64,000 nt of DNA from Halolamina litorea (GTDB lineage Archaea; Halobacteriota; Halobacteria; Halobacteriales; Haloferacaceae), in contig NZ_JANHGR010000001.1 in assembly GCF_026616205.1 (NCBI RefSeq), positions 1,612,001-1,676,000 of the forward strand. The letters run 5' to 3'. Positions 7,242 through 52,443 of the stretch are shown piece after piece. The notes under the pieces were generated by a model. That model did not search any database and was not told where the DNA came from. It saw only the letters and a list, made by a program, of their open reading frames with translations. A program made the position numbers and the translations under genes. Every line of letters begins with the position of its first letter. The first letter of the stretch is position 1.

Positions 7242-8432
7242 GTGCAGCCGTCACCGGATCTCGCAGTCGTTCGTTTCGGGGAGTTGGGCATCAAGAGCGG
7301 CAAGGTCCGCGGGCAGATGCTCGACCGCCTCGCCGACAACGTCCGCGCGATCCTCGACGACCGCGGCATCGCCGGCCGAGTCGAACGCCGCTGGTCGCGC
7401 ATCCTGATCTGGCCCGAGGAGGGCGACACGGCGGACCGCTTCGGCGCCGACGAGGCCGCCCGCGCCGCCGCCGACGCGTTCGGCGTCGTCTCGACCCGGC
7501 CCGCAATCGCCGTCGCCCCCGAACGCGATGCCCTCGAAACCGCCGCCGTCTCGCTCGCCGGCGACCACCCCGAGGGCGCGACGTTCGCCGTCCGAGCCAA
7601 CCGCGCCGGCTCGGCCGAAACCCACCCCTTCAGCAGTCAGGAGATCGAGCGCGAAGTCGGCGCCGCCGTCGGCGAAACCACCGGCGCTGACGTAGACCTC
7701 GACGACCCCGACGAGACTTACCGACTGGAGATCCGCGAGGAGGAGGCGTTCGTCTCCGTCGCCGAGTACGACGGCCCGGGCGGGCTCCCCGTCGGGACGC
7801 AAGGCAAGACGGTGCTGCTGTTCTCGGGCGGCCTCGACTCGCCCGTCGCGGCGTGGGAGCTGTTCAAACGCGGGCTGGAGGTCGTCCCGGTCTACCTCGA
7901 TCTGGGCGCCTACGGCGGCGCCGACCACCTCGCCCGCGCGACCGAGACCGCCGAAGTCGTCGCCCGCTCGGCGCCCCACGTCGACGCCCGACTGCGGGTC
8001 GTCCCGGCGGGTGATCTGGTGAACGACCTCGTCGCCGCAACCGAGCCGACGCGGATGCTCTCGCTCCGGCGTGCGATGCTCCGGGTCGCCGAGGGCGTCG
8101 CCGACGACGTGGGCGCCCACTCGCTGGCGACCGGCGAGTCCGTCGGGCAGAAGTCCTCCCAGACCGGGCCGAACCTCCGGACGACCGACGCCGCCGCCGA
8201 CCGCCCGGTCTACCGTCCGCTGCTCACGCGGGACAAGCCCGACATCGTGGAACAGGCCCGCGAGATCGGCACGTTCGTCGACGCGACGATGAACGTCGGC
8301 TGTGAGCGCGTCGCCCCGGACTACCCCGAGACGAACGCGACGATTTCGGGCGTCGAAGCCGCCGAGCCGGACGACCTGCTCTCGCGGGCCGAGGCGCTGG
8401 CCGAGGAGCGCTACGTCGTCGGCGAGAAGTGA
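7242..8432 (+). CDS. thiI: ThiI-type tRNA 4-thiouridine synthetase (THUMP plus PP-loop)
   Basis: The 396-residue enzyme should adenylate U8 of tRNA for thiolation; some archaeal homologs also act in thiazole synthesis. An N-terminal ferredoxin-like start (VVRFGELGIKSGKVRGQM) is followed by a THUMP domain to about residue 165. The PP-loop ATPase has SGGLDSPVAAWEL, and the conserved NVGCERVAPDYPETNA stretch lies near the C-terminus. There is no C-terminal rhodanese domain, as in most archaeal ThiI, so sulfur must come from another donor. The GTG at 7242 sits seven codons before the conserved start; the longer open frame upstream lies inside the antisense RAD55-like gene. Confidence 0.93.
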   Translation: MQPSPDLAVVRFGELGIKSGKVRGQMLDRLADNVRAILDDRGIAGRVERRWSRILIWPEEGDTADRFGADEAARAAADAFGVVSTRPAIAVAPERDALETAAVSLAGDHPEGATFAVRANRAGSAETHPFSSQEIEREVGAAVGETTGADVDLDDPDETYRLEIREEEAFVSVAEYDGPGGLPVGTQGKTVLLFSGGLDSPVAAWELFKRGLEVVPVYLDLGAYGGADHLARATETAEVVARSAPHVDARLRVVPAGDLVNDLVAATEPTRMLSLRRAMLRVAEGVADDVGAHSLATGESVGQKSSQTGPNLRTTDAAADRPVYRPLLTRDKPDIVEQAREIGTFVDATMNVGCERVAPDYPETNATISGVEAAEPDDLLSRAEALAEERYVVGEK

Positions 8433-8517
8433 CCACCGTCTACTAGGTCTGGGGCCCTCCCGTCCCCCGGTTCGCCCCCACTCTTTTGGCCCGATCGGCC
8501 GTCCGTCGTGTCGAGCG

Positions 8518-9408
8518 ATGAGCTACGAGTGGACGAACGTCCGGGCGCCGAAGGCGGCACAGTTGAACGCCGTCGAGTCTGCAGGCAGCATCGCCTTCGC
8601 GGCCGGCGCTCGCGGGCTGATGATGGAGCGGAGCGGGACGGGTGAGTGGCGGACGCTGTTCGAGACCGGTCCGCGGGGAAACGGGAGCAACCTTCTCGGC
8701 TGCGGGATGACCACCGACGACCGCCGTATCTGGTTCACCGGCGCCGGCGGGACGTTCGGGTACTACGACCGACGGTCCGAGGAGGTCGAGAACTACGCCA
8801 CCCCCTACGACCTGACGGACGACCTCACGAGCGTCAGCGTGAGTGGCCCCGCAGGGAACGAGACGCTGCACGTCACGACCGACAGCGGCCGGGTGTTCCG
8901 GGCGTCGATGGACCAGAACGACCTCACCGTCGACGGCGTCGCCGTCCCGCGCGACGGCGCAACGATCAACGAGGTCGTCCGGATCGAACAGGACCACTAC
9001 CTCGCCGACGACGCGGGCTACCTCCACTACTCACAGAACGGCAAGCGGTGGCGGAGCCACCGGCTCGCAGAGACGAGCGTCGTGGGGGTTGCGACCGCGG
9101 CCAACGGCCTCTGTGCGGTGACCGACAGTCACGGGGTTCACGTCGACATCTCCGTCTTCGGCGAGGAAGGCCGGCGCAAGCAGTTCCCGCCGGGGATCAG
9201 CGCGCCTAACGACGTCTCCGCCGGCGGGCGGACGTTCGTCGTCTGTGGCGACTCCGGCGGCGTCTCGACGATGTCGAACAAGGACGCTCCCTTCACCCCA
9301 CAGGAGACGGGCAAGGACAAGTCCTACCGCGCGGTCGAACTGATGAGCGACGGGACCATCATCGCCGTCGGCGCCGAGGGGACGATCTCCGAAGGCCGGT
9401 TCCAGTAG
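8518..9408 (+). CDS. Predicted beta-propeller / photosystem-assembly-like repeat protein, function unknown
   Basis: The 296-residue protein consists of repeated strands with Trp/Gly-rich turns, for example AGSIAFAAGARGLMMERSG, RIWFTGAGGTFGYYD, DAGYLHYSQNGKRWRSH and DGTIIAVGAEGTISEGRFQ. The spacing of about 40-50 residues suggests a six- or seven-bladed propeller of the BNR or YCF48-like type. No signal peptide or membrane segment is visible, so it should be cytoplasmic. The ATG at 8518 starts the repeat region directly. No catalytic motif was recognised; the fold is an inference from pattern only. Confidence 0.72.
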   Translation: MSYEWTNVRAPKAAQLNAVESAGSIAFAAGARGLMMERSGTGEWRTLFETGPRGNGSNLLGCGMTTDDRRIWFTGAGGTFGYYDRRSEEVENYATPYDLTDDLTSVSVSGPAGNETLHVTTDSGRVFRASMDQNDLTVDGVAVPRDGATINEVVRIEQDHYLADDAGYLHYSQNGKRWRSHRLAETSVVGVATAANGLCAVTDSHGVHVDISVFGEEGRRKQFPPGISAPNDVSAGGRTFVVCGDSGGVSTMSNKDAPFTPQETGKDKSYRAVELMSDGTIIAVGAEGTISEGRFQ

Positions 9409-9578
9409 GTTCGAGTTCCCGTATTTCCTGCCCCGGCCCTCTGAACTGACGGCACGGCCGGGTCCGGCGGCTTATCTCGACGACGGAGTCACCGAAGCCG
9501 GTACGGTCATCGAGGGGACGCCGACGAACTGATCGCCGGACCGCAACCCACTTCATCGGCGCCGTCGACCGCCCGGTA

Positions 9579-10025
9579 ATGGCGCAGGTCTGTCTGTTGG
9601 GCACCCCCGAGAGTACCCTCCGCTACGAACTGCTCTCGCGGGAGACCGCCCGCGAGGCGCTCGCGACCTACGACCTGCGGGAGCCGTACGCGAACAGCCT
9701 CGCGCTCGACACCGTCTCCATCGGCGCCGCCGTCTCGCTGTTGAACGACCTGAACTGGTACCTCGTGCGCTTCACCCGGGCGGCGCTGGTGCAGTCGGAC
9801 TCCGTCTCGGAGGGGGAGTGGCTCTCCCGGGACCTCGCGACGGCGATCCGTGACGGCGAGGTCGATCCGGACGCCACGGGGACGTTCCTCGAAGTCTACG
9901 GCGTCGAGGAGGGCCGGCCCGAGGACCCCGTCTTCGTCGAGCGCGAGGGGGAATGGACCCCCGAACGCGAGGGGTACGACGAGGTACTCGTGGTCCGGGT
10001 GACCGAAGGGGAGTTCGGCGGCTAG
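9579..10025 (+). CDS. Conserved haloarchaeal protein, DUF5804-like
   Basis: The 148-residue acidic protein is of unknown function. It resembles, from memory, a haloarchaeal-only family (DUF5804) with the shared core RYELLSRETAREALATYDLREPY and LLNDLNWYLVRF. No membrane segment, signal or metal motif is visible. It stands alone between a propeller-like gene and the convergent cysteine synthase-like gene, so context gives no role. The ATG is the only sensible start. Coding status is strong because the frame is long and shows the high third-position GC of its neighbours. Confidence 0.8.
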   Translation: MAQVCLLGTPESTLRYELLSRETAREALATYDLREPYANSLALDTVSIGAAVSLLNDLNWYLVRFTRAALVQSDSVSEGEWLSRDLATAIRDGEVDPDATGTFLEVYGVEEGRPEDPVFVEREGEWTPEREGYDEVLVVRVTEGEFGG

Positions 10026-46427: not shown

Positions 46428-46610
46428 ATGTCCTCGGGCAAGGGTCCGTACGCGGACTCCCGAACCGTGCAGGAGTCCAACGGCGGCTACATGGTGTCGA
46501 TACCGAAACAGATCGCGGAGCGCTACGACATCGAGAAGGGCGACGAAGTCTGGTGGACCGACGGCGCCGACACCGACCGGCCGACGTTCATCCCCCCCGA
46601 CGAACTGTAG
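46428..46610 (+). CDS. AbrB/SpoVT-type DNA-binding protein, 60 residues
   Basis: The sequence ESNGGYMVSIPKQIAERYDIEKGDEVWW is the swapped-hairpin DNA-binding core of AbrB, MazE and PhoU-linked haloarchaeal proteins. MSSGKGPYADSRTVQ is a short polar leader, and a few residues follow. It probably binds DNA as a dimer. A TATA-like ccttat at 46398-46403 is 25 bases before the ATG. No MazF-like toxin gene follows: the next gene is convergent. It could be a transcription regulator rather than an antitoxin. Confidence 0.86.
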   Translation: MSSGKGPYADSRTVQESNGGYMVSIPKQIAERYDIEKGDEVWWTDGADTDRPTFIPPDEL

Positions 46611-46614
46611 CCGG

Positions 46615-47136
46615 CTAGCCGTCCGTGACGGCTTTCTCGGCCCGCAGCGGCCGCTCGCTCACGAGTCGGCAGTCGAACGCGGGGTGTTCCGCGAAGTGGC
46701 GCACGAGCAGGTGCCGCCGCGAGCCAGTGAGTCCCCGCTCGCCCACGTCTTCGGCGCCGAACTCGCTCGGCAGCGACCGGAACAGGTCTCGGAGTTCCTC
46801 GACGGAGTCGAACACCTGTTCGTTGCCGGGCGTGTCGGCGCTCCGTCGCCCGACGGCGTAGCTCCCGTCGCGCCGGTAGTGACCGACGGTTCTGAACAGT
46901 TCCAGCCGGCGGTCCAGCGCGTCCCCGACGGCCGCGCGCAGCGAGAGCGCCTGCTCGCGGGGGAGCTCGTACCGGTCCCCGTCGATGATCAGTCTGACGG
47001 CGCCGTCAGTCGCTTCGACGGTCAGTGGGGTTCCGTCGGCAGGGGAGAACCCGATCAGGAGGGTGGCTACTCCGCATGGTTGGGGCGACGGCCGGCCGCG
47101 CGAAGAACGTGGCGGGACGTAGCTGTGTGTTGACAC
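46615..47136 (-). CDS. Haloarchaeal protein of unknown function, 173 residues
   Basis: Residues after MSTHSYVPPRSS hold LIGFSPADGTPLTVEATDGAVRLIIDGDRYELPREQALSLRAAVGDALDRR and a second part with HYRRDGSYAVGRRSADTPGNEQVFDSVEELRDLF. No family was recognised. The start is a GTG at 47134-47136, two codons past the stop of the LEA-type gene; the apparent later Val start is a GTA codon and cannot be used. A short pair of strands and helices with no membrane segment suggests a cytoplasmic protein. It probably shares a transcript with the LEA-type gene. Confidence 0.6.
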   Translation of the reverse strand: MSTHSYVPPRSSRGRPSPQPCGVATLLIGFSPADGTPLTVEATDGAVRLIIDGDRYELPREQALSLRAAVGDALDRRLELFRTVGHYRRDGSYAVGRRSADTPGNEQVFDSVEELRDLFRSLPSEFGAEDVGERGLTGSRRHLLVRHFAEHPAFDCRLVSERPLRAEKAVTDG

Positions 47137-47141
47137 ACCAC

Positions 47142-48224
47142 CTACGCAGTCGGCCCGTCGACGGCGAGCAGAGTGTCGGTCTCGGTTGGTGTCGGCGTGG
47201 CGGTGGTCGTGTCGTCGTCGGCTGGAGTCGGTGTCGTGGTGCCGCCGTCGGAACCGCCCGTATCGCCCGCGGACTCCTGCCCGAAGATGTCCGTCTCGAT
47301 GGTCCGCTCGATGCTGTCGAGCGGGATCTCGATGGTGCCGCCGCCGATCGCCGAGAGGTCGACGCGCGCGTAGAACTCGACTTCGAGTCGGGTGGTCTGA
47401 TCGTTCCGGAGGTGGCTCACCCACCACTCGTCGAGGTTCTCGTTTTGGAGGGCCGTCGTCGCCCGGACGGTTTCGAGTTCACCCGGCCGGATCGTGACCG
47501 TGCTGTCGGTGGCGCCGGCGCCCATCGTGACGTTGTTCATTCTGATCTCGTAGCCGATCTCGGAGATGGCGATCGGGGTCGGGTTGGGGTTGTACAGTTC
47601 GAAGGCCGTGTCGATCTCCGTGGTGTCGTTGCTCACCTCTCCCCACGAGCCGCTGGTACTGTTGAGCCAGAGCACCGGACTGGGCGCCGCGGGCTCGTCG
47701 ATATCGATCGGCCGGTCCTCGTCGCTGTTGAAGCCGCCGATGATGTTCGTGTTGACGTTGCGGGTGACCTGTGGGTTGAACTCCCGGCCCAGCAGGTCCG
47801 AGTGGATCGAGGCGTCGATGACCAGCGTGGTGTTCTCGCCGTTCGCAACGTGGCTCGTCCACCACGGCGGGATGCGGTCGTTGCTCATCAGCGTCGTGAC
47901 CGGGATGGTGCTGTTGCCGCTGGCGTTCAGCCCGAGCCCCTCGCGGCCGCCGGTGGCCATCCGGACGCCGTTCATCTCGACGGCGTAGTCGATACTCAGG
48001 CCGCCAAGCCTGACCCCGAAGGGGTTGGGGTTGTTGACCGTGATCTCGGACTCGATCGTCGTCGTGGACTCGTTGACGGGGCCGAACCCGTTGTCGACGC
48101 CGACGACCGAGGGCGCGCCGATGATTCCCAGCGCCCACGCACCGCCAACCGAGACCGATACCACCCCCAGTACCGCGACGACGGCCTTGATCGCCGTCGC
48201 GGTCGCGAGCTTCCCACCGAGCAT
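47142..48224 (-). CDS. Membrane-anchored protein with two LEA type-2 (WHy) domains
   Basis: The 360-residue protein has an N-terminal hydrophobic anchor (residues about 7-40, ending GIIGAPSVVGVDN). Two repeats follow, each with a typical LEA14 core. The first has TIESEITVNNPNPFGVRLGGLSIDYAVEMNGVRM, the second TAFELYNPNPTPIAISEIGYEIRMNNVTMG. Each is followed by the same PWWTSHVANGENTTLVIDASI or EWWVSHLRNDQTTRLEVEFYA element. A Thr/Asp/Pro-rich tail ends the protein. LEA type-2 folds bind hydrophobic or protein partners; the exact role is unknown. It faces outside the cell if the anchor is a signal. Confidence 0.88.
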   Translation of the reverse strand: MLGGKLATATAIKAVVAVLGVVSVSVGGAWALGIIGAPSVVGVDNGFGPVNESTTTIESEITVNNPNPFGVRLGGLSIDYAVEMNGVRMATGGREGLGLNASGNSTIPVTTLMSNDRIPPWWTSHVANGENTTLVIDASIHSDLLGREFNPQVTRNVNTNIIGGFNSDEDRPIDIDEPAAPSPVLWLNSTSGSWGEVSNDTTEIDTAFELYNPNPTPIAISEIGYEIRMNNVTMGAGATDSTVTIRPGELETVRATTALQNENLDEWWVSHLRNDQTTRLEVEFYARVDLSAIGGGTIEIPLDSIERTIETDIFGQESAGDTGGSDGGTTTPTPADDDTTTATPTPTETDTLLAVDGPTA

Positions 48225-48494: not shown

Positions 48495-50876
48495 TCAGGC
48501 GACCCGGGTCTCCCGGAACGCGTTGCCGGCGATCAGCCCACAGCACAGCACCGCGGCTGCCATCGTCAGCAGGGGGTTGAGGAGCCCGACGACCGCCAGC
48601 GGGATCGCGGCCGCGTTGTACAGCAGCGCCGCTCGGTCGTTCCAGCGGCGCCGACTGTAGCTCTCCGCCGAGAGGTCGAACGCCGCAGCGACGCCGTCGA
48701 GGTCGTCCTCGACGACGGCGAGGTCCGAGGCCTCCGCGGCCAGCGCCGTCCCGCTCCCCAGCGAGATACCCAGGTCGGCCGCGGCCAGCGCGGGCGCGTC
48801 GTTCGTCCCGTCGCCGACCATCGCCACCGGCCCCTCGGCGCGGAGTCGGCGCACCGCGGCGGACTTCCCGGCGGGAGGCACGCCCGCGAAGACGTGCGTG
48901 ACGTGCGGGCTGTCGGCGAAGCCGGCGGCGGCGGACTCGTCGTCGCCGGTGAGGATCACCACGTCCAGCCCCCGGTTGGCCAGCCGTTCGAGCGTGGCCT
49001 CCCAGTCCGGCCGGGCTTCGTCGCCGACGACGACGACGCCGGCCGGCTCGCCGGTCTCCGGTCCGTCCTCGACGGCATCAGTCGAGCCGACGATGACGGG
49101 GAGGTGCCCCGACTGGCGCGCCTCGGTTGCCCGGTCACGGACTCGGTCGGGGACCGTCCAGCCGCGTTCCCCGAACAGTTCCGGGTTCCCCACCAGCACG
49201 CGCCGCCCGTCCACGACACCTTCGACGCCGGTCGGGTGGCTGGTGAAGGAGTCGACGGTCGGCGCCGTCTCGCCGAACGCGTCGACGAGCGCGGCTGCCG
49301 CAGGGTGGGAGGCACGGCGCTCCAGCGCGGCGGCCGCGGCCAACAGCGCCTCGCTGTCGGCGCCCTCGCCGGTCACGTCGGTGTCGAGGACATCCATCCG
49401 GCCGGTCGTCAGCGTCCCCGTCTTGTCGAAGACGACGGTGTCGACGCCGCGGAGGCGCTCGAACACCGTCTCGTCGAAGACGGCGACGCCGCGGGAGAGC
49501 GCCCGCGAGACGCTCGTCCCCGCCGAGAGCGGCGTCGCGAAGCCCAGCGCCCACGGCGAGGCGGCGATGAACGTCGTCAGGAGTGCGACGATACCGACGG
49601 CAACGCGGCCGCCGCTCAGGACGAGGGCGCCGGCGCCCGCGACCACCGCGACCGCGACCAGCGGCGGCGTGACGCGCTCGGCGATGCGGTTCGCCCGGCG
49701 CTGGCCGCCGTGTGTCGCGCTCTGGAACCCCCAGACGGAGGCAGCGAGGCGGTCGACGCTGCTGCGCACGTCGTCGCCGACGGCGAGGACGGCGGCGCCG
49801 GTCGTGATGACGGAGCCACCGATGAGGTCGTCGCCTGCACGCTTCCGAACCGGCGTCGACTCGCCGGTGACGACGGCCTCGTCGACGGTACACTCACCCT
49901 CCGTGAGCGTCCCGTCCACGGGCACCCGTTCGCCCTCCGGCACGAGCACCCGGTCGCCCGGTTCGAGGTCGGCGACGGGGACCGTCTCGGTCCCCGATTC
50001 GGTCTCCCGCTGGGCGTGTTCGACCCGGGAGACCGTGAGGTCGGTCAGTTCGCTCGCGGCCTCGCGTTTGGCGAGGGACTCGTAGAACGTCGCCCCGGTG
50101 ACGGTGGCGACGCCGACGACCGCGAGGTCGTAGTACGCCCCGGAGACGCCGGCGAAAAAGCCCGGGACGCCGAAGAGGAACGCGGCCATCGCCGTCAGGG
50201 TGACGAGCAAGCCGGTGTTCGGTTTCCGGAGGACGATGGCGATGTAGGCGTCGCGCAACACCGGCGCGCCGGTGACGACGATGATGACGAACGTCAGGAC
50301 GATGAACACCGGCAGTACCGTGGCGATGCCGGCCTCGCCGGCCAGCGGGTCGGCGAAGCCGAGCAGCGCCGCGAGGTGGGACGGGTAGAAGACGACGGCG
50401 TAGGGGATCAACAGGAACGAGGCGAACACCACGCCCGCGGCGTAGCGGTAGCCGAGCGCGCCGTCGACGATGCCGCCGTCGGTGTCGACTGTGGGGCCGG
50501 GTTCGCGGTCGTCGCGGCGGGTCGCGTCGTAGCCGAGGCCGCTGAGGGCTTCGGTGAGACGCTCGGTCGGCGGGTCGCCCGTACAGTCGACTCGGACAGA
50601 CTCGGTGACGTAGCTCGCGTCGGCGTCGACGACGCCGTCGATCCGGCGGGCGACCGTTTCGAGGTACGCCTCGCAGGTGGCCGAGTGCATCCCGTCGACC
50701 GAGAAGTAGACCGCGGTGGTGTCGGCGTCGGCGGCCGGTTCGGGCTCGGCCTCCTGCTCCGGGGGCTCCGGCAGCGTCTCGGCGACCGATCGACAGCCCG
50801 CCGAGCAGAACGCCCCCTCGCGGTGCTCGGGGATCGGGCCGTCACACAGCGCACAGGCTGGCGATCCGTTACTCAC
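48495..50876 (-). CDS. P1B-type heavy-metal ATPase with unusual cysteine loss
   Basis: The 793-residue product is a metal-exporting ATPase. An N-terminal zinc-ribbon-like part has Cys8, Cys11, Cys24 and Cys28 (CALC, FCSAGC). A heavy-metal-associated domain follows with GMHSATCE at 62-69, where the usual GMxCxxC has Ser65. The sixth-helix motif reads ASPWALG, where CPC or SPC is normal. The ATPase core is intact: DKTGTLTTG (phosphorylated Asp), the TGES loop in VVTGESTPVRKRAG, GDGTNDAPAL. The TM7 region YNAAAIPL is present. The GTG at 50876 begins SNGSPACALC; the longer upstream frame is not protein-like. Confidence 0.88.
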   Translation of the reverse strand: MSNGSPACALCDGPIPEHREGAFCSAGCRSVAETLPEPPEQEAEPEPAADADTTAVYFSVDGMHSATCEAYLETVARRIDGVVDADASYVTESVRVDCTGDPPTERLTEALSGLGYDATRRDDREPGPTVDTDGGIVDGALGYRYAAGVVFASFLLIPYAVVFYPSHLAALLGFADPLAGEAGIATVLPVFIVLTFVIIVVTGAPVLRDAYIAIVLRKPNTGLLVTLTAMAAFLFGVPGFFAGVSGAYYDLAVVGVATVTGATFYESLAKREAASELTDLTVSRVEHAQRETESGTETVPVADLEPGDRVLVPEGERVPVDGTLTEGECTVDEAVVTGESTPVRKRAGDDLIGGSVITTGAAVLAVGDDVRSSVDRLAASVWGFQSATHGGQRRANRIAERVTPPLVAVAVVAGAGALVLSGGRVAVGIVALLTTFIAASPWALGFATPLSAGTSVSRALSRGVAVFDETVFERLRGVDTVVFDKTGTLTTGRMDVLDTDVTGEGADSEALLAAAAALERRASHPAAAALVDAFGETAPTVDSFTSHPTGVEGVVDGRRVLVGNPELFGERGWTVPDRVRDRATEARQSGHLPVIVGSTDAVEDGPETGEPAGVVVVGDEARPDWEATLERLANRGLDVVILTGDDESAAAGFADSPHVTHVFAGVPPAGKSAAVRRLRAEGPVAMVGDGTNDAPALAAADLGISLGSGTALAAEASDLAVVEDDLDGVAAAFDLSAESYSRRRWNDRAALLYNAAAIPLAVVGLLNPLLTMAAAVLCCGLIAGNAFRETRVA

Positions 50877-50937: not shown

Positions 50938-52443
50938 TCAGTCGCTCCGGTAGCGCTGCTCGATGACCGTGTCGGGGTCGGTGTACTCCTCGCGGTGGCG
51001 GAGACACCGGCTGGTGCGCCCGTCGCCCACGTCGGCGGCCTCGGGGTGCTCGGTGCTACATACGCTGCCGAACTCGGCGTCCAGCCGGGCTGCAGCACCC
51101 GACTCGTCGCCGGCGCGGGCCATCTCGGCGGCCTCGTAGACCACCGCGGCGGCGTCGTCGGGCATGTTCAGCGCGATGCCGTCGCCGGCCCGCTCGGCGT
51201 CGAACAGTTCGAGCAGGAGTTCGTCGACCGTCGACACGTCCTGGATCCCGAGGCGCTCCTTGAGCTGGTCGAGCAGCCCCTTCTCGGCGTTCGCCCGCGC
51301 GTGGAACACCGAGTAGAGTTGGTCGAGCGCCTCCCAGTGTTCGCCGCTGACGCTGTACTCGTCGGGCCGGATCTTGGCCGGACAGCGCGTCGAGAACCGG
51401 CAGCCGCTCGGCGGGTCCCGTGGGCTGGGGGGTGTCCCGCGGAGCGTGATCCGCTCGCCGGTCTCGACCATCGTGCCGGGGATGGCCGACAGCAGCGACT
51501 CAGTGTAGGGGTGGGCCGGCTCCCGGAACACCTGCTCGGTCGGGCCGAGTTCCATCACGTTGCCGAGGTACATCACCGCCACGCGGTCGGCGATGTGCCG
51601 GACGACGCTGAGGTCGTGGGCGATGAACAGGTAGGTCAGACCCAACTCCTCTTGGAGGTCCTCGAGGAGGTTGATGATCCGGGCCTGGACGGACACGTCG
51701 AGCGCCGAGACCGGTTCGTCGAGGACGAGGAACCGCGGTTCGAGCGCGAGCGCGCGGGCGATTCCCACACGCTGGCTCTGTCCCCCGGAGAACTGGTGGG
51801 GGTAGCGGTAGTAGTGTTCCTCGCGCAGGCCGACCTGTTCGAGCAGTGCCCGAACGCGGTCCTCGCGCATCTCGCTTGCGTGTTTGGTGACCGTGACGGC
51901 GGCGCTCGACTCGTCGAGCTTCACGTCCACGTCGTCGGCCGAGAGCGGTGCACGCTCCCGAACGCTGAGGCTCCCGTCGACGCCGACGGTGAGGTCGGGG
52001 CGTTCGTCGGCCTCGGCGGCGTGGACCCGTGATCCCGAGACTTCCCGGCCGCCGTCGACGGCGACCGCGAGGTCGGGCCAGTCGTGGGCCTCCAGCGGTT
52101 CCCGGATGATCTCGCCGACGGTCATCCGCTCGTTGAGGCTGGCCTCGGGGTCCTGAAACACCATCTGGGCCTCGCTCTGCCACGCCCGAAGCTCCGACCC
52201 GGAGATGCTGGTCACGTCGGTCCCGTCCGAGAGCACCTCGCCCTCGGTGGCGCTCTCGAGGTTCAGGATCGTCCGACCCAGCGTGGTCTTCCCACAGCCG
52301 GACTCGCCGACGAGGCCGACCGTCTCGCCCTCGTCGATCTCGAAGCTCACGCCGTCGACGGCTTTCACGGGGTCGTCGCCGAAGACGCCGCCGTCGTCGT
52401 AGTACTTCTTGAGGTCCTCGACCTTGAGGAACGGCTCGCTCAT
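50938..52443 (-). CDS. oppF: OppF-like ABC ATPase with internal and C-terminal insertions
   Basis: The 501-residue ATPase of a peptide or nickel-type importer has Walker [10 protein letters not shown] at about residue 45, signature FSGGQSQR in the middle, Walker [12 protein letters not shown], and the C-terminal peptide-transporter motif [11 protein letters not shown]. Between the Q-loop region and the signature an insertion of about 75 residues begins after PDLAVAVDG. After RCPAK a further ~100 residues precede the second Cys pair ([15 protein letters not shown]). Usual length is about 330. It overlaps OppD as ATGA, and is the last gene of the importer operon. Confidence 0.93.

Follow-up and report, generated by a model that had tools for sequence, protein, structure and literature searches.

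A haloarchaeal clade of P1B-type ATPases with Trp in the M4 motif appears to have lost the membrane copper path and kept the ATPase motor

The substrate of a P1B-type ATPase is read from the motif in membrane helix M4 together with a few residues of M1, M5, and M6. One gene in a 64,000-nucleotide stretch of the Halolamina litorea genome (hereafter the window) encodes an ATPase of this type in which SPW replaces the CPC, CPH, or SPC metal-ligand motif of M4, and the replacement extends across a whole clade of relatives, here called xPW (Trp in the third position of the motif; x = S, C, T, or A). What, if anything, does such a protein move? A sequence-only reading of the window had described two missing key cysteines on an intact ATPase core and had offered either a subclass with other metal ligands (such as N-terminal cysteines) or a changed metal selectivity. 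Translation of 48495-50876 on the minus strand bears out the description: Ser65 stands in GMHSATCE (codon 50682-50684), residues 440 to 442 read SPW (Ser codon 49557-49559), and the 793-aa protein carries intact TGES (337-340), DKTGT (484-488), HP (524-525), and GDGTND (688-693) motifs. The alignment behind the counts below was made up of rows with CPC, CPH, or xPW in M4. The 84 xPW rows were selected by motif, so that W442 is 84/84 by construction; L016 (from genome G086), L228 (with CLW), and L202 are excluded from the column counts, and denominators below 84 reflect gaps.

48495..50876, minus strand: P1B-type ATPase of the xPW clade; single open frame, 793 aa, GTG start
50793..50855, minus strand: N-terminal Cys4 module (C8, C11, C24, C28); Cys in 72/72 scorable xPW and 22/22 scorable CPC proteins
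50526..50705, minus strand: HMA domain (PF00403), residues 58-117; Pfam 38.9 bits, cutoff 24.8
50670..50693, minus strand: GMHSATCE, first Cys replaced by Ser65, second (Cys68) kept; C65 in 12/82 and C68 in 80/82 scorable xPW proteins
50418..50420, minus strand: S153, first membrane helix; Met in 23/23 CPC relatives and 3/82 scorable xPW proteins
50214..50216, minus strand: T221 in place of the entry-site Met (NMD to NTG/NTD), start of M1; Met in 0/83 scorable xPW and 23/23 CPC proteins
50193..50195, minus strand: T228, M1; Thr in 76/82 xPW versus Ala in 23/23 CPC proteins
49857..49868, minus strand: TGES, A domain; E339 in 84/84 xPW proteins
49551..49559, minus strand: SPW (440-442), unwound part of M4, at the CPC position; first residue S60, C18, T4, A2 in 84 xPW proteins
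49524..49526, minus strand: S451, M4; Ser in 80/84 xPW versus Ala in 23/23 CPC proteins
49413..49427, minus strand: DKTGT phosphorylation motif; D484 in 84/84 xPW proteins
48798..48815, minus strand: GDGTND hinge motif
48630..48632, minus strand: A749, M5; Trp in 23/23 CPC and 0/82 scorable xPW proteins (L74, A3, G2, V2, T1)
48615..48620, minus strand: YN (753-754), M5, kept; Y in 80/82 and N in 82/82 xPW proteins
48540..48554, minus strand: AVLCC (775-779), M6, at the MxxSS position of relatives; M775 in 0/83, SS in 4/82, and CC in 6/82 xPW proteins

The window protein is a P1B-type ATPase in the broad sense, as its core motifs, its match to TIGR01525 (the general heavy-metal P-type ATPase model of NCBIfam; 372.9 bits, cutoff 346.25), and its fold all agree. 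Pfam recognizes HMA, E1-E2_ATPase, and Hydrolase domains, and the predicted structure (mean pLDDT 82.8, pTM 0.76) has the P1B fold, including the extra N-terminal membrane helices, with helix M4 broken at residues 440 to 443. The NCBIfam models for copper (TIGR01511; 312.3 bits, cutoff 397) and cadmium (TIGR01512, P1B-2 Zn/Cd; 254.2 bits, cutoff 313.5) both score below cutoff. The best fold match is ZntA (P1B-2; 4umv; Z 25.9, 28% identity), from which the window ATPase differs by lacking CPC and by falling below the TIGR01512 cutoff. It resembles the P1B-1 pump CopA in fold (Z 24.9 for LpCopA, 4bbj; Z 21.7 for AfCopA, 7r0g), in catalytic motifs, and in YN, but has no sulfur ligand of the CopA entry or transport site; of the P1B-1 signature it shows YN in M5, with SPW in place of CPC in M4 and AVLCC in place of MxxSS in M6. 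The P1B-4 signature, SPC in M4 with HEGxT in M6, is likewise absent (SPW and TMAAAVLCC). In architecture, the protein is like CcoI/FixI (P1B-1 Cu(I) ATPases of the CopA2 type, which serve in cytochrome oxidase assembly): both have a single HMA domain preceded by an extra N-terminal Cys site, and they share the core and YN; a CPC paralogue from its own genome (L002; 46% identity) has the same architecture. Unlike CcoI/FixI, xPW proteins lack CPC, the entry Met, the M6 Met, and mostly MxxSS, have a Trp in M4 but not at the M5 position, and in this genus do not lie beside the oxidase families that were searched.

Is SPW a feature of one gene or of a lineage? SPW (six genomes) or APW (one genome) occurs at the same locus in 7/7 same-genus genomes, window included, and the locus is syntenic in all seven, flanked by an ABC-transporter-like gene and a gene for a LEA_2 protein. 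Close relatives all carrying CPC, which the sequence-only reading had named as the sign of an error or a decaying gene, were thus not encountered; CPC occurs in two paralogues within the same genome, at 46% and 42% identity to the window ATPase. When 148 genomes were searched without bias at the protein level, every one of the 19 top-scoring loci was xPW, and CPC began with the next locus. A DNA pattern for P-W-A-x-G-x-A/S-T-P matched 83/391 haloarchaeal genomes (reversed control, 0), which is a lower bound, as the pattern misses at least two members, one with SPWG (G094) and one with CLW (G414). In a sample of the phylum, the same pattern matched 19/81 haloarchaeal and 0/311 other genomes, with one match for the reversed control. 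All 40 further pattern places were P-type ATPases with DKTGT, and xPW and DKTG lay in one open frame at 87/88 loci (around pattern places or same-genus genes); at the remaining one (L202, a contig end with N), the two were not found in one frame within 70 residues.

With four motif stretches removed, the 46 xPW rows of the tree formed a single clade among CPC haloarchaeal ATPases (SH-aLRT 100), in keeping with the earlier suggestion of a subclass. A single change separates xPW from CPC in the 107-row tree, with no CPC row inside the xPW clade. Within the clade, at least 10 changes of the first M4 residue and 4 changes of the HMA first Cys indicate that the first Cys was exchanged several times. 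Two checks are free of motif selection, i.e., the 19 best loci of the protein search and 19 further places picked by similarity alone. The latter comprised 4 xPW places (two from one genome), 15 CPC places, and no intermediates; the readable xPW proteins all lacked the M1 Met, MxxSS, and the M5 Trp, whereas the readable CPC proteins had all three (the tree of these places kept the motif columns). The trees, which were "quick" searches restricted to haloarchaeal ATPases (i.e., excluding bacterial CcoI) and in which the long branches of L041, L252, L042, and L259 were flagged, place the clade as descending from haloarchaeal CPC ATPases with the N-terminal Cys module and one HMA domain. The xPW clade is best explained by a single origin from a Cu(I)-pump-like CPC ancestor that would have had the CcoI/CopA2 architecture.

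A decaying or mis-sequenced copper ATPase is a highly improbable explanation of these proteins. The same-genus orthologue in G086, a genome that is 79% complete, is split over three frames (L183, about 7600-9970; an assembly error or real damage), and one relative (L228:9592-12123, minus strand) has CLW for CPW, having lost the M4 Pro and kept the Trp together with an intact CxxC HMA domain. Against these cases stand 84 distinct sequences of one motif class with intact catalytic motifs, the conserved synteny, and a mean ATPase dN/dS of 0.28 across six same-genus genomes, compared with 0.22 to 0.30 for five neighboring genes; at the clade level, we reject error and decay on these grounds. The catalytic motifs are kept under purifying selection.

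The losses reach well beyond the two cysteines noticed at the outset, as M1 and M6 have lost their copper ligands too. The copper-path residues described for AfCopA are an entry Met on the cytosolic side, where MB' passes into M1, both Cys of CPC, the M5 pair YN, and the M6 motif MxxSS (PMC9433437, in part); all of these positions are fixed in the 23 CPC relatives. By motif and position, T221 probably corresponds to the AfCopA entry Met. All five membrane Cys/Met positions that are fixed in the 23 CPC relatives (the entry Met, both CPC Cys, the M6 Met, and the first-helix Met) are lost in most or all of the 84 xPW proteins. At the entry position, Thr is found in 79 of the 83 scorable proteins and Met in none; the first CPC Cys is kept in 18/84, and the M6 Met is replaced mostly by Val or Ala. 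Other fixed membrane positions were lost at 14/54, compared with 5/5 for Cys/Met (one-sided Fisher P = 0.0023, in a post hoc test of positions that share a phylogeny). Among soluble fixed positions, 2/9 Cys/Met and 2/96 others were lost, and the comparison calls for caution in that membrane positions are more relaxed in general. The replacements T221, T228, and S451 are nearly fixed, which points to selection more than to drift. The M5 Trp at position 749, invariant in the CPC relatives, has become Leu in 74 of 82 xPW proteins and Ala, Gly, Val, or Thr in the others, so that an M4 Trp was gained and an M5 Trp lost in the same clade; the two changes may be sterically connected. D250, E266, and YN are kept, D484 and E339 are invariant, and the xPW alignment contains no newly fixed charged membrane residue that would indicate a substrate. 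These sequence comparisons show that the membrane Cu(I) path was dismantled and the ATPase motor preserved; the motor is probably still in use. The proposed change in metal selectivity understates the result: of the thiol and thioether ligands along the membrane path, none is retained throughout the clade, although C440 persists in 18/84 members.

The N-terminal cysteines, put forward earlier as substitute ligands, are unlikely in that role: the Cys4 module precedes the membrane domain and is found just as consistently in CPC relatives (22/22 versus 72/72), which marks it as inherited and rules it out as a replacement. CxxC in the HMA domain is kept in 12/82 scorable xPW proteins, all 12 of which also keep C440; of the other 70, 5 keep C440 and 65 have neither. 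The two N-terminal sites of Rhodobacter CcoI are described as important and not essential for copper delivery, and one has been suggested to regulate the ATPase (PMC8475189, in part). By analogy, the Cys4 module and HMA domain may have a regulatory role in the xPW ATPase.

The genes on either side of the window ATPase are as follows.

47142..48224, minus strand: LEA_2-domain protein (two-domain), next gene downstream; syntenic in 7/7 same-genus genomes
50938..52443, minus strand: next gene upstream, an Opp/Dpp-type ABC transporter ATPase by eye; syntenic in 7/7 same-genus genomes

Farther downstream lie a DUF7528 protein (46615-47427, minus strand), also syntenic in 7/7 same-genus genomes, and a short frame (46428-46610, plus strand; 60 aa) with the look of an AbrB/SpoVT-type DNA-binding protein by eye. 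For other xPW loci, context was scored with twelve families, including copper/zinc ATPases, CDF, blue copper proteins, multicopper oxidases, CopZ-like proteins, two oxidase subunits, DsbB, CPBP proteases, PadR, and an unnamed membrane protein. At least one of these families was near 26/38 distinct loci outside the genus, a score that leaves out 40 further loci and uses query genes taken from named plasmids among the scored loci. None of the twelve occurs at any of the 7 same-genus loci. The coxA and cydB queries, for cytochrome oxidase genes, gave 0/7 same-genus matches and 3 and 5 matches, respectively, among the 38 other distinct loci. In another set of loci, mostly of family f4, xPW genes lie among sulfatase, GNAT, MFS, and DCC1-like genes. 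Context therefore connects some xPW members with metal islands, and no common function emerges; as a guide to function it was set aside, since it differs between plasmid metal islands, the opp-like/LEA_2 locus, and the sulfatase/GNAT/MFS/DCC1-like loci.

An unnamed multi-helix membrane protein with a CTCGCCG stretch, found in 89/391 haloarchaeal genomes, adjoins xPW genes at 22/38 distinct loci outside the genus (e.g., L120:12819-13850, L125:12989-14191, and L127:12535-13554, all on the minus strand and convergent with the xPW gene). It has no Pfam match above cutoff and no match to the two NCBIfam models tested. As a dedicated partner it was rejected, as it was not found at the 7 same-genus loci and also occurs without xPW, sometimes beside other P1B ATPases. 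A 453-aa protein with a sub-cutoff Pfam match (L277:10956-12314, minus strand) lies upstream of xPW genes at 26/37 loci compared.

We favor, at a probability of about 45%, the reading that the xPW ATPase is a duplicate of a Cu(I) pump whose copper path was dismantled and whose ATP-driven cycle was kept, and that it most likely moves a non-thiophilic substrate, a term suggested only by the absent ligands. In the clade, the entry Met has changed to Thr, the second CPC Cys to Trp, the first repeatedly to Ser, Thr, or Ala, the M6 Met mostly to Val or Ala, and the bulky M5 Trp to Leu or smaller residues. ATP would still drive the usual E1/E2 switching, the substrate might pass a site lined by hydroxyls, the Tyr-Asn pair, and Trp442, and the Cys4 module with its mostly one-Cys HMA domain would act as cytosolic regulatory or sensing domains. 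This reading draws on the single clade recovered with motif columns left out, the Cys/Met loss in the membrane while 7/9 soluble Cys/Met positions are kept, the invariant D484 and E339, the CPC paralogues that persist in the same genome, the dN/dS of 0.28, and the fold matches with the M4 break. Several observations count against it. YN, a copper-site pair, is kept, and some members retain C440 (18/84), the HMA CxxC (12/82), or SS in M6 (4/82) and so may still touch copper. The 26/38 loci near at least one of the twelve families, many of which are metal or copper related, would suit a metal role, the xPW alignment lacks a new fixed charged membrane residue, and 14/54 other membrane positions were lost as well. 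In AfCopA, moreover, replacement of the entry Met left copper binding unchanged, and this residue was assigned to uptake (PMC9433437, in part). A further proposal is that xPW represents a new P1B subgroup in which the gain of Trp in M4, its disappearance from M5, and the loss of the conserved sulfur ligands in the membrane would have turned a copper pump into a primary pump for a non-metal or hard cation, bound by an aromatic residue together with hydroxyls; in these salt-loving cells, the cation might be organic or might be K+/Na+. This proposal is doubtful.

The main alternative is a non-pumping ATPase whose cycle would serve as a conformational switch that regulates or helps to assemble membrane or copper proteins, with no transport across the membrane and with Trp442 plugging the old path; we consider this somewhat unlikely, yet it would account for sulfur ligands lost with no new fixed charged residues, for a bulky Trp in the ion site clade-wide, for the retained N-terminal Cys domains, and for the many plasmid members near copper-protein genes. 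It fits poorly with the retained ion-pump scaffold, YN, M4 break, and membrane helices, and with the lack of a partner gene common to all loci, the 7 same-genus loci being without any of the 12 island families. P-type pumps, furthermore, normally require ligand binding for phosphorylation, which that binding triggers. It is unlikely, in turn, that the protein still moves Cu(I)/Ag(I) or another thiophilic metal through other ligands; examples would be Cys440 where the motif is CPW, Cys778/779 in the present genus, or Trp442 through a cation-pi contact of the kind that the periplasmic protein CusF makes with its metal. The 12/82 scorable members with a CxxC HMA domain, all with C440, would fit such a role, as would the kept YN, the many relatives in copper or metal islands, and the CC at 778-779, present in the window ATPase and in 6/82 members. 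Met is, however, absent at 221 and 775 in every scorable member; substitutions in CPC, YN, or MxxSS impaired copper binding by AfCopA (PMC9433437, in part), and replacement of both CPC Cys in Caulobacter FixI gave the deletion phenotype (PMC12617631, in part).

For the favored reading, in which a P-type motor outlives its original path, a model of KdpFABC offers a precedent for reuse of the engine: in that model, an ion that binds in KdpB sets off phosphorylation, whereas K+ leaves from KdpA, the partner subunit (reviewed in part of PMC10654040). The P1B-like Rcc01042 of Rhodobacter, like xPW proteins, is described as having no typical transmembrane metal-binding motifs, with its function unassigned, and no xPW motif was seen in the portion of that account consulted (PMC7558416). 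We found no description of xPW among the titles and abstract beginnings of the open-access literature, a scope outside which the P1B survey of Smith et al. (2014) falls.

Within a single lineage, a natural series runs from CPC through CPW to SPW, TPW, and APW; the copper path is removed along it and the motor is kept, and CPC paralogues are present in the same cell. The series would allow a direct test of the residues by which ATP hydrolysis is coupled to metal binding, and of whether such a motor can be reused for another substrate. Plasmid records label xPW members with names like "heavy metal translocating P-type ATPase," and such names may be wrong.
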